Shown one piece after another: positions 1,428 through 58,635 of a DNA stretch of 64,000 bases. The notes under the pieces were generated by a model, which saw only the letters and a program-made list of their open reading frames with translations, was not told where the DNA came from and ran no database searches. Position numbers and translations under genes: made by a program. How positions within the stretch are numbered: the first letter of the stretch is position 1; every line of letters begins with the position of its first letter. This DNA comes from Blastococcus sp. TF02A-30 (GTDB lineage: Bacteria; Actinomycetota; Actinomycetes; Mycobacteriales; Geodermatophilaceae), in the NCBI RefSeq assembly GCF_003319185.1, contig NZ_QOHJ01000005.1, forward strand, positions 1 through 64,000. Reading direction: 5' to 3'.

Positions 1428-2789
1428 TCAGAGCCGGTCCAGGTCGGACTCGCGGTAGGGACCGACCACGGCCAGGCTCGTCTCCCGCCCGAACAGGTCC
1501 GCGGCCACCTCACGCACCTGCACCTCGTCGACGGCGTCGAGCCGGGCGAGCACCTCGCGCACCGGGAGGTACTCCCCGTAGGCGAGCTCGCTCTTGCCCA
1601 GCCGGCTCATGCGGGAGCCGGTGTCCTCGAGGCCGAGCACCATGCCGCCCTTGAGCTGGCCCTGGGCGCGCACGACCTCCTCGGGCGTGAGGCCCTCGGC
1701 GGCGACGCGGGCGAGCTCCTCGCGCACGATGCGCAGCACCTCGGGCACCCGCTTCTTCGAGCACCCCGCGTAGACGGAGAACGAGCCGGTGCCGGCGTAG
1801 TGGGTGAGCGCCGAGCCGACGCTGTAGACCAGGCCGCGCTTCTCCCGGATCTCCTGGAACAGCCGCGAGCTCATCCCACCACCGACCGCGGCGTCCAGGA
1901 CGGCGGCCGCGTACCGGCGGTCGTCGAGCCGGCCCAGCGCCGTGGAGCCGAGCAGCAGGTGCGTCTGCTCCGTGCGCCGGGAGATCAGGCCCGTGGCGCG
2001 CGCCGGGCGCAGCGACCCCTCCTCGCCGCGGCGCAGCGGCGCCGGGCGCGCATCCCCCGTCAGCCGGTCGCCGAACGCGGCGGTGACCAGTTCGAGGACC
2101 TGCTGGTGGTCGACCCGGCCGGCCGCGGCGACCACCATCGACGGCATCGCGTACCGCTGCCGGTACCAGCCGTCGACGTCGTCCCGGGTGAGCGACTCGA
2201 TGGACTCGACGGTGCCCAGCACCGAGCGACCGAGCGGGGTGTCGCCGTACAGCGTCTCGGCGAACAGGTCGTGCACGGCGTCGGAGGGCTCGTCGTCGCG
2301 CATGGCGATCTCCTCGAGCACCACCGTCCGCTCCGACTCGAGGTCCGCGGCGGTGTTGCGCGCCTCCGTCACCAGGTCGGCGAGCAGCGTGACCGCGAGC
2401 GGCAGGTCCGAGGCGAGCACGTTCGCGTAGTAGCAGGTGTGCTCCTTCGCGGTGAACGCGTTCATCTCACCGCCGACCGCGTCCATCGCCGTGGCGATCT
2501 CCAGCGCGCTGCGCGACGCCGTCCCCTTGAAGAGCAGGTGCTCCAGGAAGTGGGACGAGCCGGCGACCGCGGGCGTCTCGTCACGGGACCCAACGCCGAC
2601 CCAGATGCCGAGCGTCGCCGACAGCACGCCGGGCATCGTCTCGGTCAGGACGCGCAGGCCTCCCGGGAGCTCGGTGCGCTCCACCCGGCCGCCGACCTCG
2701 TCGAGGTCGAGCAGCACGGTCTCCCCGACGGGAACCGGGGCGGGTGCAGCAGCACCCGCCCCGGCCCCGATCACATCAGTCGTGGTCAC
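1428..2789 (-). CDS. M16 family zinc peptidase (pitrilysin-like)
   Basis: A 453-aa zinc metalloprotease of the M16 family with the inverted zinc motif HFLEH near residue 81, followed about 75 residues later by the third-ligand region (ENAFTAKEH-type helix, here [12 protein letters not shown], then the Glu in [12 protein letters not shown]). A C-terminal M16 half-domain contains the characteristic R-Y segment in [10 protein letters not shown]. Homologues sit directly after pnp in many actinobacteria (Rv2782c in M. tuberculosis) and are soluble cytoplasmic proteases of unclear substrate. Its GTG start overlaps the pnp stop by 4 bases, indicating translational coupling. The first 20 residues are Ala/Pro-rich. 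Confidence 0.93.
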
Positions 2790-5053
2790 TCACCCGCGGG
2801 TGCAGCGGCCTCGGCGGGGGCCTCCGCAGCGGCGTCGGCCGAGCCCTCGGCAGCGACCGGCACGAGGCTGATCTTGCCGCGGGCGTCGATGTCGGTGATC
2901 TCCACCTGCATCTTGTCGCCGACGTTCGCCACGTCCTCGACCTTGCCGATGCGCTTGCCGCCACCGAGCTTGCTGATGTGCACCAGCCCGTCCTTGCCCG
3001 GGAGCAGGGAGACGAAGGCGCCGAACGGCGTGGTCTTGACGACCGTGCCGAGGAAGCGCTCGCCCACCTTGGGCATCTGCGGGTTGGCGATGGCGTTGAT
3101 CCGGTCCACCGCGGCCTGGGCCGAGGGGCCGTCGGACGCGCCGACGTAGATCGTGCCGTCGTCCTCGATGGTGATGTCGGCGCCGGTCTCGTCCTGGATC
3201 GCGTTGATCATCTGGCCCTTGGGGCCGATGACCGCACCGATCTTGTCGACCGGGATGCGCACCGTGGTCACGCGCGGGGCGTACGGGCTCATCTCGTCGG
3301 GGGCGTCGATGGCCTCGTTCATCACGTCGAGGATGTGCAGGCGGGCGGCGCGGGCCTGGGTCAGCGCCTGGGCGAGCACGTCGGACGGGATGCCGTCGAG
3401 CTTGGTGTCCAGCTGCAGCGCGGTGACGAACTCCCGCGTGCCGGCGACCTTGAAGTCCATGTCCCCGAAGGCGTCCTCGGCACCGAGGATGTCGGTGAGC
3501 GCGACGTACTCGGTCTTGCCGTCGACCTCGTCGGAGACCAGGCCCATGGCGATGCCGGCGACCGGCGCCTTCAGCGGCACACCGGCGTTGAGCAGGGCCA
3601 GCGTCGAGGCGCAGACCGAACCCATCGAGGTGGACCCGTTGGAGCCCAGCGCCTCGGACACCTGGCGGATCGCGTAGGGGAACTCCTCGCGGTCCGGCAG
3701 CACCGGCACCAGCGCGCGCTCGGCGAGCGCGCCGTGGCCGATCTCGCGCCGCTTGGGCGAGCCCACGCGGCCGGTCTCACCGGTGGAGTACGGCGGGAAG
3801 TTGTAGTTGTGCATGTAGCGCTTGCGGTTCACCGGCGAGAGCGTGTCCAGCTGCTGCTCCATGCGGAGCATGTTCAGCGTGGTGACGCCCAGGATCTGGG
3901 TCTCGCCGCGCTCGAACAGCGCCGAGCCGTGCACCCGCGGGATGACCTCGACCTCGGCCGACAGCGGCCGGATGTCGGTGAGGCCACGACCGTCGATGCG
4001 GACCTTGTCGCGCAGGATGCGCTGCCGCACGACCTTCTTGGTGACGGCGCGGAAGGCCCCGGAGATCTCCTTCTCGCGGCCCTCGAACTGGCCGGCCAGC
4101 GCGGCCTTGACCTCGTCCTTGAGCGCGTCGGTGGCCTCCTCGCGCTCCTGCTTGCCGGCGATCTGCTGCGCCTGGGCCAGCTTGTCGCCGACCTGCGCCT
4201 CGACGGCGGCGTAGACGTCGTCCTGGTAGTCCAGGAAGCGCGGGAAGTCGGCGACCGGCTTGGCGGCCTTCTCGGCCATGGCCGACTGCGCGTCGCACAG
4301 CGCCTTGATGAAGGGCTTGGCGGCCTCGAGGCCCTGGGCCACGACCTCCTCGGTCGGGGCGGTGGCACCACCGGCGACCAGCTCGATGGTCTTCTCGGTG
4401 GCCTCGGCCTCGACCATCATGATCGCGACGTCGCCGTCCGGGAGGACGCGACCGGCGACGACCATGTCGAAGATGGCGTCCTCGAGCTCGGCGTGCGTCG
4501 GGAAGGCGACCCACTGGCCGCGGATGAGCGCGACGCGGGTGCCGCCGACCGGGCCGGAGAACGGCAGGCCGGAGAGCTGGGTCGACGCCGAGGCGCCGTT
4601 GATGGCGAGCACGTCGTACAGGTGGTCGGGGTCCAGGGACATGACCGTGATGACGACCTGGACCTCGTTGCGCAGGCCCTTGGCGAACGTCGGCCGCAGC
4701 GGGCGGTCGATGAGGCGGCAGGTCAGGATCGCGTCCTCGGAGGGGCGGCCCTCGCGGCGGAAGAACGAGCCGGGGATGCGGCCCGCGGCGTACATCCGCT
4801 CCTCGACGTCGACGGTCAGCGGGAAGAAGTCGAACTGCTCCTTGGGCTGACGGCCGGCCGTGGTGGCCGACAGCAGCATGCTGTCGCCCATCGTGACGAC
4901 GACGGAGCCGGCGGCCTGCTTGGCGAGGCGGCCGGTCTCGAAGGTGATGGTGCGGCTGCCGAAGCTGCCGTTGTCGATGACCGCGGTCGCGGTGGTGACC
5001 CCGTCCTCGGGGTCGAACTCGGCGGCGGTGCTGCCGGTGGTGGGTGCGGACAT
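2786..5053 (-). CDS. pnp: Polyribonucleotide nucleotidyltransferase (PNPase)
   Basis: 3'-5' phosphorolytic exoribonuclease, and in actinobacteria also a GDP/ppGpp-related synthase by older literature (guanosine pentaphosphate synthetase). The 755-aa protein shows two RNase PH repeats separated by an all-helical linker, then a KH domain with [17 protein letters not shown] and an S1 domain with [13 protein letters not shown] and DGLVHIS, then an Ala/Glu tail. ATG at 5053 is preceded by AGAAGGA, a good ribosome site; the frame continues upstream without family sequence. It is followed with a 4-base overlap by the M16 protease. rpsO-terminator sequence lies just upstream, so pnp has its own promoter in 5054-5285. 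Confidence 0.97.
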
Positions 5054-5285
5054 GTGTCCTTCTCTCTTCTCGTCGCCACCGGCCTCGTACCGGTTCGCGA
5101 CTCCTCTTCGCGGCGAGCCTCGCCGTCTGCGTCCGGGGCGACCGGTGCTCGATCGAAGCCCTCGGGCCGTGCCGTTCCCCTCCTGGGGTCCGGCCACTCC
5201 TCCCGGGGGCCACTACCGAGGACCGGCCCTTCGCGGACGGCCGACGGGGTACCCGCCTGGCTCGTGCGGCGGGTGCCGCACGAGA
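5054..5285. promoter_or_regulatory. pnp leader and promoter region
   Basis: The 230-base gap between the rpsO terminator and the pnp ATG should hold the pnp promoter and 5' leader. I see several GC-rich inverted repeats but no clear -10/-35 pair. pnp leaders in other bacteria are targets of autoregulation; nothing here proves it. Confidence 0.35.
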
Positions 5286-56857: not shown

Positions 56858-57145
56858 AGCACGTCCTCAGCAGTCACGGGCGCAGCACGGGGCGCGCCAC
56901 CTGACCCCAGGGTATCGAGGCCCCCGCGGGTCGGCCGTCGCGCGACGGTCCCGGCCGCGGCGCCGCGCGGACCGACGCCCGCCGGGGGATGACAGGTGAA
57001 GGCTGCTTCATCTATCGTGGGATCCGCGAGGGGAGTACCCGAACCGCATCCGCGACGCCGCACCCGTCAGTCCCGGCCCCCAGACCCGGGTCCGGCCGAT
57101 CCCCCGGGATCGCGGGGAGACCTCGCCGCAGCACCGGAGACGCCC
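56858..57145. promoter_or_regulatory. Divergent region between ffh and the USP-like gene
   Basis: A 288-base gap. On the plus strand ATGACA (56989-56994) and TATCGT (57013-57018), 18 bases apart, make a possible promoter whose transcript would begin around 57025, exactly where the riboswitch-like element starts. The ffh promoter (minus) should lie in 56858-56980. Confidence 0.5.
57021..57130 (+). promoter_or_regulatory. Putative yybP-ykoY (Mn2+) riboswitch
   Basis: The 5' element GCGAGGGGAGTA (57026-57037) and the 3' element GGGGAGACCTCGC (57114-57126) are the two hallmark sequences of this RNA class, and their outer parts GCGAGG and CCTCGC pair perfectly as stem P1. GTCAG (57066-57070), often seen between them in actinobacterial copies, is present. 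The usual GC after AGUA is here CC. The element ends 19 bases before the next start codon. In known cases Mn2+ bound between the two loops turns on manganese export or related genes. Confidence 0.7.
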
Positions 57146-57589
57146 GTGACCCTCCAGGTGACCCACCCCCCGGCCGCTCCCCCGGCCGCCCCTCCACCCG
57201 CGGCCCGCCCCGCCCCGCCCCGGAGCGCGCGCCGCCTGCTCGCCGTCGTGACCGATGCGGGGACCGCGGCCGCGAGCGTCGACGCCGCCCTGGCGGAGGC
57301 GGACCGGGCCGGAGCCGCTGCGCTGCACGTGGCCGTGGTCCTCCCCCGGACGCCGTTCACCCTCGACGCCGGGCTGCTGGCCCGCCTGTCGGAGGAGGCG
57401 GACCGGGCGGTGGTGGAGCTCATGGGCCTGGTCTCCCGCCGCACCGCCGGCGCCGCGCACCGGACCACGCTGAGCGTCCACCTGGTCCGCGGGCTCCGGG
57501 GACGGCGGCGGGAGCGGGTCCTGGACCGGCTGGCGTCGCGCCTGGCCCGGCGGCTGGACGCGGTCCGGGTGGGCGGGCCGCTGCGGTGA
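57146..57589 (+). CDS. Universal-stress-protein-like protein
   Basis: A 147-aa protein with a Pro/Ala-rich N-terminus of 25 residues, then an alternating alpha/beta pattern as in UspA: RRLLAVVTDAGTAAASVDAAL, ALHVAVVLPRTPF. A GxxGxG nucleotide loop is not present. GTG at 57146 has GGAG six bases ahead. The stop overlaps the GTG of the baeRF3 gene (GTGA). The family call is tentative. Confidence 0.6.
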   Translation: MTLQVTHPPAAPPAAPPPAARPAPPRSARRLLAVVTDAGTAAASVDAALAEADRAGAAALHVAVVLPRTPFTLDAGLLARLSEEADRAVVELMGLVSRRTAGAAHRTTLSVHLVRGLRGRRRERVLDRLASRLARRLDAVRVGGPLR

Positions 57590-58635
57590 CCACCACCCTG
57601 GACCGGATCGGCTGGCCCTCCCCCGAGCAGGTGTTCGCCCTGCACTCGGTGCGCGACGAGCCCTGCATCTCGCTGCTGGCCGCCACCACCCCGGCGCCGG
57701 CCATGACCGACGAGGACGCGCGGCGGCTGCGCCGGCTTGCGCAGGACGCGGCAGCACGCCTGGCCGCTGCCGGCGTCCCGGACCGGGACGCGCTCGTCGC
57801 CGCCCTCGAGGACGTGGTCACCGGCGCCCGGCGGGGACCGACCGGAGCCGGGATCGCGCTGTACCTCAGCCGGCACGTCCGCGAGGTCGTCCGCCTGCCG
57901 GTGCCCGTCACCGAGCGGGTGGTGGTGGATCCGACGTTCGCCACGCGGGACCTGGTCCGCTCGCTGCACCGCACCCCGCGGCACGTCGTCCTGCTGCTGT
58001 CCGAGCGCCAGGCCCGGCTGCTCGAGGGCGTGGCCGACGACCTCCGCCCACCACCGCGCTCCGCGTTCCCGATCACGGCGGACGGGGCGCCGCTCGACGC
58101 CTTCCTCCGGCGCGTCGACGAAGCGCTCGGCGCCCACCTGCGGCTGCACCCCGCGCCACTGGTGCTGGTCGGCGCCGAGCGGGTCGTGGGACGGTTCCGC
58201 CGGTCGTCGCGGAACACCGGCCGGCTGGCGGGGACGGTGGCCGCCAACGTCACCCGGTTCCCCCTGGTCGACCTGGTGCAGCGGATCAGGGTGGTGCTCG
58301 ACGCCTACCTCCTCGGCCGGCAGGACGAGGCGCTCCAGCACCTGGACCGGCGGCGGTCCCGGCAGGCGGTGGTCGACGGCATCGACGCCGCGTGGCTGGC
58401 CGCCCGGCGCGAGCGCCCGGAGATGCTGGCCGTGGAGGAGAGCTTCACCTACGCGGCGCGGCTGAGCGCCGACGGCGACTTCCTGGTCCCGGCCGACGAC
58501 GTCGAGCACCCCGACGTCGTGGACGACGTGGTGGACGAGCTGATCGAGACGGTCATCCTCCGCGGCGGGTGGATCGCCTTCGTCGACGACGGCGCCCTGG
58601 CCGAGCACGGCCGCGTCGCGCTGAGCGTGCGGTGA
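57586..58635 (+). CDS. baeRF family 3 protein (archaeo-eukaryotic release-factor-like)
   Basis: A 349-aa protein resembling the bacterial archaeo-eukaryotic release factor family 3, with PCISLLAATTPAP in the N-domain, PRHVVLLLSERQARLLEGVAD in the core and a C-terminal eL30-like part. The GGQ motif of true release factors is not present. The bacterial families are thought to act in ribosome hibernation or rescue under stress; function here is unproven. Translationally coupled to the USP-like gene and downstream of the riboswitch-like element. Confidence 0.72.
   Translation: MTTTLDRIGWPSPEQVFALHSVRDEPCISLLAATTPAPAMTDEDARRLRRLAQDAAARLAAAGVPDRDALVAALEDVVTGARRGPTGAGIALYLSRHVREVVRLPVPVTERVVVDPTFATRDLVRSLHRTPRHVVLLLSERQARLLEGVADDLRPPPRSAFPITADGAPLDAFLRRVDEALGAHLRLHPAPLVLVGAERVVGRFRRSSRNTGRLAGTVAANVTRFPLVDLVQRIRVVLDAYLLGRQDEALQHLDRRRSRQAVVDGIDAAWLAARRERPEMLAVEESFTYAARLSADGDFLVPADDVEHPDVVDDVVDELIETVILRGGWIAFVDDGALAEHGRVALSVR

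Follow-up and report, generated by a model that had tools for sequence, protein, structure and literature searches.

A putative manganese-sensing leader RNA of the yybP-ykoY class upstream of a probable Balon-like ribosome hibernation operon in Blastococcus

A leader RNA and its two-gene operon

The window analysed here, a 64,000-nucleotide stretch of the genome of Blastococcus sp. TF02A-30, carries on its forward strand a leader RNA resembling the yybP-ykoY (manganese) riboswitch class (57025..57127), followed by a gene for a small USP-like protein of 147 amino acids (57146..57589) and a gene for a baeRF family 3 protein of 349 amino acids (57586..58635). Eighteen bases separate the end of the RNA model match at 57127 from the GTG start of the first gene at 57146, a reading frame supported by 14 aligned orthologous frames, and the two genes overlap in GTGA. 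Directly 5′ of the RNA lies a sigma-70-type promoter on the same strand (ATGACA, 18 nt, TATCGT; 56989..57018), for which a consensus scan found one instance versus a shuffle mean of 0.0. By eye, a TA-rich −10-like box stands at the same position in the 14 other leaders printed, with a less clear −35 element. The sequence and the fold test described below mark GGAG (57136..57139, +), 9 nt 3′ of helix P1.1, as the likely Shine-Dalgarno sequence.

All parts of the leader are on the forward strand. P1.1 pairs GCGAGG (57026..57031) with CCTCGC (57121..57126), as indicated by RNAalifold and pair counts, which bears out the first-pass annotation in its description of class-like ends joined by a perfect 6-bp helix; the two end motifs are GGGGAGTA (57030-57037) and GGGGAGACC (57114-57122). 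Conserved alignment columns delimit the two sides of L1, GGAGTA (57032..57037) and GAGA (57117..57120). P1.2 joins CCC (57038..57040) to GGG (57114..57116) according to RNAalifold, with pair counts supporting its 5′ strand, and both methods place a P2 hairpin (57044..57055) that is weak in the window sequence. Pair counts further define P3.1 (57057..57066 with 57087..57096), where 5 of 10 pairs change on both sides among relatives, and the P3.2 hairpin (57075..57086) beyond the loop L3, TCAGTCCC (57067..57074). The P4 hairpin (CGATCCC/GGGATCG, 57097..57113) shows two-sided changes in 4 of its 5 pairs. Passages of PMC6754395 on a solved riboswitch describe an invariable L3 adenine as the Mn2+-specific contact, an A-minor contact made by A10 of L1 and a stabilization of P1.1 by Mn2+. 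The role we give to GGAGTA is taken from these passages, and by the same analogy adenine 57069 in L3 would correspond to the Mn discriminator.

The name USP-like, under which the first gene had been annotated, is reasonable but unproven. The best Foldseek hits of its AlphaFold model (pLDDT 85) are indeed universal stress proteins, none of them at E ≤ 0.001, and the window protein has no Pfam hit. Two of the 14 orthologues match the Usp model (best E 0.0073) and two match a glycosyltransferase model (best E 0.0027).

The identity of the second gene stands more firmly, with a match to PF18845 at E 1.2e-22 (81.5 bits versus a cut-off of 31.5). What had been annotated as a possible link to ribosome hibernation can now be strengthened to homology with the hibernation factor Balon of Psychrobacter urativorans: the baeRF3 profile aligns over positions 19-349 with PDB 8rd8_B (E 6.8e-31) and also matches MSMEG_1130, labelled Balon (E 0.011), and the protein matches NF052287, 'AOC03_06830 family ribosome hibernation factor' (E 1e-57). 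Chain B of 8rd8 is labelled a chemotaxis protein in the PDB file; its identification with Balon draws on a single mention of the code in PMC10901736, where AOC03 is likewise mentioned once, and on the NF052287 match. Because its 196.3 bits fall below the NF052287 equivalog cut-off of 330, a difference from the Psychrobacter protein, we file the protein as Balon-like and not as an equivalog. Balon is described in parts of PMC10901736 as devoid of GGQ and NIKS and as typically encoded within stress-response operons, and neither motif was found in 10 of 10 baeRF3 orthologues. By sequence, the second gene encodes a full-length homologue of Balon, with a putative action on the ribosome. The AlphaFold model of the protein is too poor for a structural search (pLDDT 67.8), and the same genome holds one HPF-family match. 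As a separate observation, baeRF3 residues about 216-346 (58234-58623, +) match L-arginine hydroxylases more strongly than expected, at E 0.007 with the baeRF3 profile and 2e-5 with the single protein.

Conservation, covariation and class membership

A search with the baeRF3 protein gave matches in 15 of 112 genomes of the family, and the closest named relatives of the window locus are Blastococcus and Geodermatophilus. The RNA is present at that locus in 14 of the 15: it precedes the USP-like/baeRF3 unit in 12 genomes (in G015, baeRF3 alone) and terC-baeRF3 in two, G092 and G112, the match in G112 covering residues 9-219 only. In the remaining genome, G023, where the protein match covers residues 270-348 only, no RNA was found in the 9 kb examined.

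We aligned 15 leaders from 12 genomes, four of them from a single genome (G019). Without any structure as input, RNAalifold recovered the yybP-ykoY four-way junction helix by helix, although its P3.2 is shifted relative to our own structure; P1.1, P1.2, P2, P3.1, P3.2, P4 and the loops L1 and L3 are all present, as they are in the alignment of model R2 described below. In our structure 93.1% of the cells pair and 12 of the 29 pairs change on both sides, a count that no shuffle reached (0 of 500; shuffled mean 4.0), and every slid version of the structure collapses in the pair-count test. Since the structure was drawn on the same sequences, the percentage paired is biased upwards, and more weight belongs to the double changes. 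The C and A of L3 and most of the L1 core do not vary in 15 of 15 leaders, and the aptamer has been kept, with compensatory changes, across four genera and in four copies in one genome. We take the leader, from this comparative evidence, to be a homologous, covarying aptamer with the class core, conserved upstream of the operon. Folding the segment alone, which the first-pass annotation had proposed as a check, gave no such signal (z −0.57, with 46 of 200 shuffles as good); because the fold of the segment is no better than its shuffles, the structure is unprovable from one sequence, and it is the conserved set that proves it. The four leaders of G019 belong to four RNA-usp-baeRF3 units within about 35 kb (contig C1, ~448-483 kb; L020-L022); one unit is followed by a TerC-like gene, and in one baeRF3 is divided between two frames.

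The other check proposed, an Infernal search with the Rfam model RF00080, formally went against the class reading, a non-significant score having been named there as refuting it: the window was unmatched at the gathering score (45 bits), the segment was unmatched at E ≤ 10, and the loci of eight relatives gave no match. This negative counts for little, because the same threshold excludes two E. coli leaders, those of mntP and alx, which PMC9603457 describes as Mn-sensing riboswitches. Neither was reported at gathering; under permissive settings mntP reached 41.6 bits, below 45, and alx was unreported at E ≤ 1. Among 394 genomes of the class, RF00080 had matches in 22 at E ≤ 0.1 and none over the cut-off, while in 14 control genomes it responded in E. 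coli, B. subtilis and Caulobacter, over the cut-off in two. Given only 151 bases, it matched the terC leader of one relative (18.4 bits, E 0.0014). RF00080 is thus a functioning model, but one whose cut-off shuts out known members and which has little sensitivity in this actinobacterial group.

Two models of our own address class membership from opposite sides. The training set of R1 comprised solely the 15 baeRF3 leaders, and that of R2 comprised 39 leaders, none with a usp/baeRF3 unit first: 33 precede terC, four GDT1, one a Na/Ca exchanger and one (L103) a small lipoprotein-like gene. The two are not independent, because the R2 training set was gathered with R1; gene contexts and E. coli hits were used in building neither. 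With strict filters, R1 matched at least 40 of 397 genomes of the order at E ≤ 0.01. Thirteen of the 46 matches listed in the order are baeRF3 leaders, and the other 33, all inspected, comprise 32 before terC and L103. R1 additionally lands on several of the weak RF00080 matches in the class, upstream of GDT1 or Na/Ca-exchanger genes, and found neither of the two E. coli leaders, mntP and alx. R2 with filters off scores the window leader at 62.0 bits (E 5.6e-12), against 13.6 bits for the next best match in the 64 kb. Under default Infernal filters the window and four relatives escaped it, all of which were found with filters off; over these searches each of the 15 baeRF3 leaders received at least 42.9 bits. 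R2 also has matches in the E. coli leaders of mntP (40.9 bits) and alx (25.1 bits). At E ≤ 0.01, R2 matched 244 of the 394 class genomes, and all 28 loci that we opened among its best class matches, three of which are training loci (L135, L137 and L146), have terC, GDT1 or a Na/Ca exchanger downstream.

The assignment to the yybP-ykoY class is therefore upheld by the conserved four-way junction, the core nucleotides and reciprocal model detection, which covers terC leaders as well as E. coli mntP and alx, and the gene contexts of the R1 and R2 matches agree with the annotation that metal exporters are the usual targets of the class. The disparity between R2 (244 of 394 genomes) and RF00080 (22 of 394) suggests that the Rfam Mn model overlooks many actinobacterial members. 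R2 identifies four copies of the RNA in the genome of the window: the window leader and three further Mn-aptamer-like RNAs (C17:458510-458606, C24:256076-256181 and C8:58727-58831), which precede two terC genes and one GDT1-family gene. L096, one of the terC genes, matches TerC in Pfam and R_switched_Alx in NCBIfam; the other is L160, and L161 is the GDT1-family gene. By sequence, these three genes carry the same RNA as the hibernation operon.

Two further loci came to light in these searches. The yybP-ykoY-like RNA at L103 (3066-3164, −; R1 33.3 bits) precedes a gene at 2657-3040 (−) for a small lipoprotein-like protein of 127 amino acids with no Pfam match, possibly a second non-transporter target. 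G011, a genome of the same genus as the window, has two Mn-aptamer-like RNAs within 3 kb (L145:210-316 and 1501-1598, −), each followed by a terC-like match.

Gene order and clade limits

The order RNA-usp-baeRF3, on one strand, holds for 14 of the 15 aligned leaders. Other arrangements, likewise on one strand, are RNA-baeRF3 (G015 and L117), RNA-baeRF3-terC (L125) and RNA-terC-baeRF3 (G092, G043 = L119, G112, L118, L121-L123, L127, L128 and L133), the last in some loci with further small genes in between. Among 20 named loci, the RNA accompanies the baeRF3 relative in 18: R1 matches 17 of them (E < 0.05, same strand, upstream), and R2 scores L117 at 43.7 bits. The two named loci without the RNA are L120, with terC upstream, and L126, with neither RNA nor terC. 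Ten of the 20 repeat loci of the family and order searches (three from G019), and among the other ten the RNA is present in eight.

This association does not extend to baeRF3 in general. PF18845 gave 39 matches in 296 genomes of the class, and 30 of these other loci were searched with flanks of about 1.5 kb. R2 under default filters yielded no match at E ≤ 0.1; since those filters had already cost R2 true members, the search was repeated with filters off, and scores then stayed at background (best 18.3 bits at L182, E 0.034; the rest ≤ 16.5). In G162, one of these 30 genomes, the RNA does occur at a greater distance upstream, in the order terC-baeRF3. On these scores we reject a general link between baeRF3 and the aptamer, and on the present genome sample the link appears confined to one clade of baeRF3.

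The small gene that intervenes between terC and baeRF3 in L120 and L122 was considered as a homologue of the first gene of the window operon and rejected, the hhalign matches (E 0.0098 and 0.12) being too weak. In L120, from Virgisporangium, the gene between terC and baeRF3 (3003-3368, +) encodes a YflT domain (heat-induced stress protein), in the order that has no RNA.

Expression platform, sign of control and competing readings

We compared the folds of the 15 baeRF3 leaders with those of 33 terC leaders, using energies that ignore tertiary contacts. A stretch of at least 6 nt complementary to the P1.1 3′ strand occurs in 20 of the 33 terC leaders versus 0 of the 15 baeRF3 leaders, and in many terC leaders the strand that replaces the P1.1 5′ strand contains the Shine-Dalgarno sequence. 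The state without P1.1 is favoured in 30 of 33 terC leaders versus 4 of 15 baeRF3 leaders, the remaining 11 favouring P1.1, and the median energy difference is +7.5 versus −2.6 kcal/mol. The baeRF3 leaders thus have no counterpart of the strand that competes with P1.1 in the canonical Mn2+ ON-switch platform, where Mn2+ binding frees the Shine-Dalgarno or prevents termination. When P1.1 was forbidden, the Shine-Dalgarno paired with the P1.1 3′ strand via a bulge in G016, G026, G096 and G087; no such pairing was seen in the window, nor was a terminator found there. In this fold model the window appears to have the sensor of the class without its usual output. Because the competing strand of the terC platforms is missing, its output step would be different or weakened, and may consist of a weak bulged competitor (ON), of P1.1 blocking the ribosome-binding site (OFF) or of control of RNA stability.

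High Mn2+ most likely turns the operon ON, a preference that comes mainly from its kinship with exporter operons: in relatives, baeRF3 shares the RNA with terC in the orders RNA-terC-baeRF3 and RNA-baeRF3-terC, and terC leaders are mostly of the ON type. The opposite sign, with the same aptamer, is a less likely second choice. A Mn2+-bound, stacked P1.1 beside the ribosome-binding site could block the 30S subunit, so that Mn would act as OFF and the hibernation proteins would be produced under Mn scarcity. The geometry is suitable, in that the start codons we chose for the first-gene orthologues lie 17-22 nt after the RNA match (G026 has a further, earlier GTG at 6) and the window Shine-Dalgarno is 9 nt from P1.1 with no competing strand found. 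The folds themselves divide: with P1.1 formed, the Shine-Dalgarno is less free in six of the 15 baeRF3 leaders, including the window, where forcing P1.1 does not free it (0.31 with, 0.47 without), but it is freer in seven and equal in two. L117, in which the RNA directly precedes baeRF3, does not fold like an ON switch (Shine-Dalgarno 0.19 with P1.1, 0.57 without), whereas L125, from the RNA-baeRF3-terC order, does; the ON-type platform of L125 and the existence of RNA-terC-baeRF3 orders both argue against OFF control.

We therefore favour, at a probability of roughly 80% for the explanation as a whole, a leader with its own promoter that belongs to the yybP-ykoY class, senses Mn2+ through its aptamer and controls in cis an operon in which a USP-like protein is translationally coupled to a Balon-type hibernation factor; in this account we infer the Mn binding and the regulation. 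As in the solved riboswitches, Mn2+ would dock L1 on L3 and stabilize P1.1, and this stabilization would change translation of the operon, such that the Mn level would set the supply of the hibernation factor.

An aptamer that has kept the fold and binds a different ion or ligand is unlikely. The baeRF3 leaders do form a distinct subgroup, scoring 75-101 bits with R1 (85 for the window), of which they are training members, versus at most 45.6 bits for other leaders, and their L3 reads NCA(G/A)TC(C/A)C; yet all 15 keep the L3 CA and most of the L1 core unchanged, the discriminator adenine being the metal-specific contact in the passages of PMC6754395 cited above, and exporter leaders vary in L3 length too (7-9 in 38 of 39 in the model-fitted alignment). 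A lengthened L3 was for that reason discarded as a mark of the baeRF3 leaders, the lengths being also alignment-dependent. That the leader is a decayed relic, left functionless after the loss of terC from an exporter operon, is improbable: the strand-exchange platform is indeed missing and terC-first relatives exist, but compensatory changes have accumulated across four genera and four copies in one genome, and the −10-like box and the tight spacing to the gene have been kept. Chance resemblance in GC-rich DNA, with no Mn riboswitch at all, would fit the silence of RF00080 and the shuffle-like fold of the single sequence, and is very improbable given the R2 score of the window, far above the next best in the 64 kb, and the conservation and covariation.

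The favoured Mn2+ aptamer shares with known yybP-ykoY leaders (RF00080; E. coli mntP and alx, actinobacterial terC) the arrangement P1.1-L1-P1.2-P2-P3.1-L3-P3.2-P4, a promoter of its own, action in cis, and the motifs GGGGAGTA, GAGACC and CA in L3; it differs in preceding a USP-like/Balon-like operon in place of a metal exporter, in having no P1.1-competing strand, and in going unreported by RF00080. The nearest comparison is with actinobacterial terC leaders, including the two of the same genome (L096 and L160), a context in which PMC3890552 records an observed yybP-ykoY leader for C. glutamicum terC. These are linked to the window leader by reciprocal model detection and by relatives in which baeRF3 stands beside terC behind one RNA, and are set apart by the gene adjoining the RNA and by the expression platform. 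What would be new is a putative Mn aptamer on a hibernation operon that dispenses with the strand-exchange switch of most terC leaders. The main text of PMC10901736 does not mention manganese, riboswitches or TerC, and among the matches listed in open-licence PMC full text, judged by titles and abstract openings, no paper pairs a Mn riboswitch with a hibernation factor.

The arrangement suggests that the Mn level may have a say in when ribosomes become dormant. Hibernation genes would be a target of another kind for the class, coupling the shutdown of ribosomes to metal status through an RNA, and the leader would offer a concrete handle on what triggers a Balon-like factor. We lean somewhat towards a broader scenario in which Mn is a direct, RNA-sensed hibernation signal in this actinobacterial branch: a Balon-like factor would have joined the Mn regulon via terC-baeRF3 operons, and in Geodermatophilaceae the aptamer would have stayed after terC dropped out, with a new kind of platform. 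A tie to the desiccation or radiation biology of the family is a thought and not a result. Elsewhere in the window, an Actino-pnp RNA lies at 5141-5227 on the reverse strand, scoring 50.2 bits, over its Rfam gathering score.
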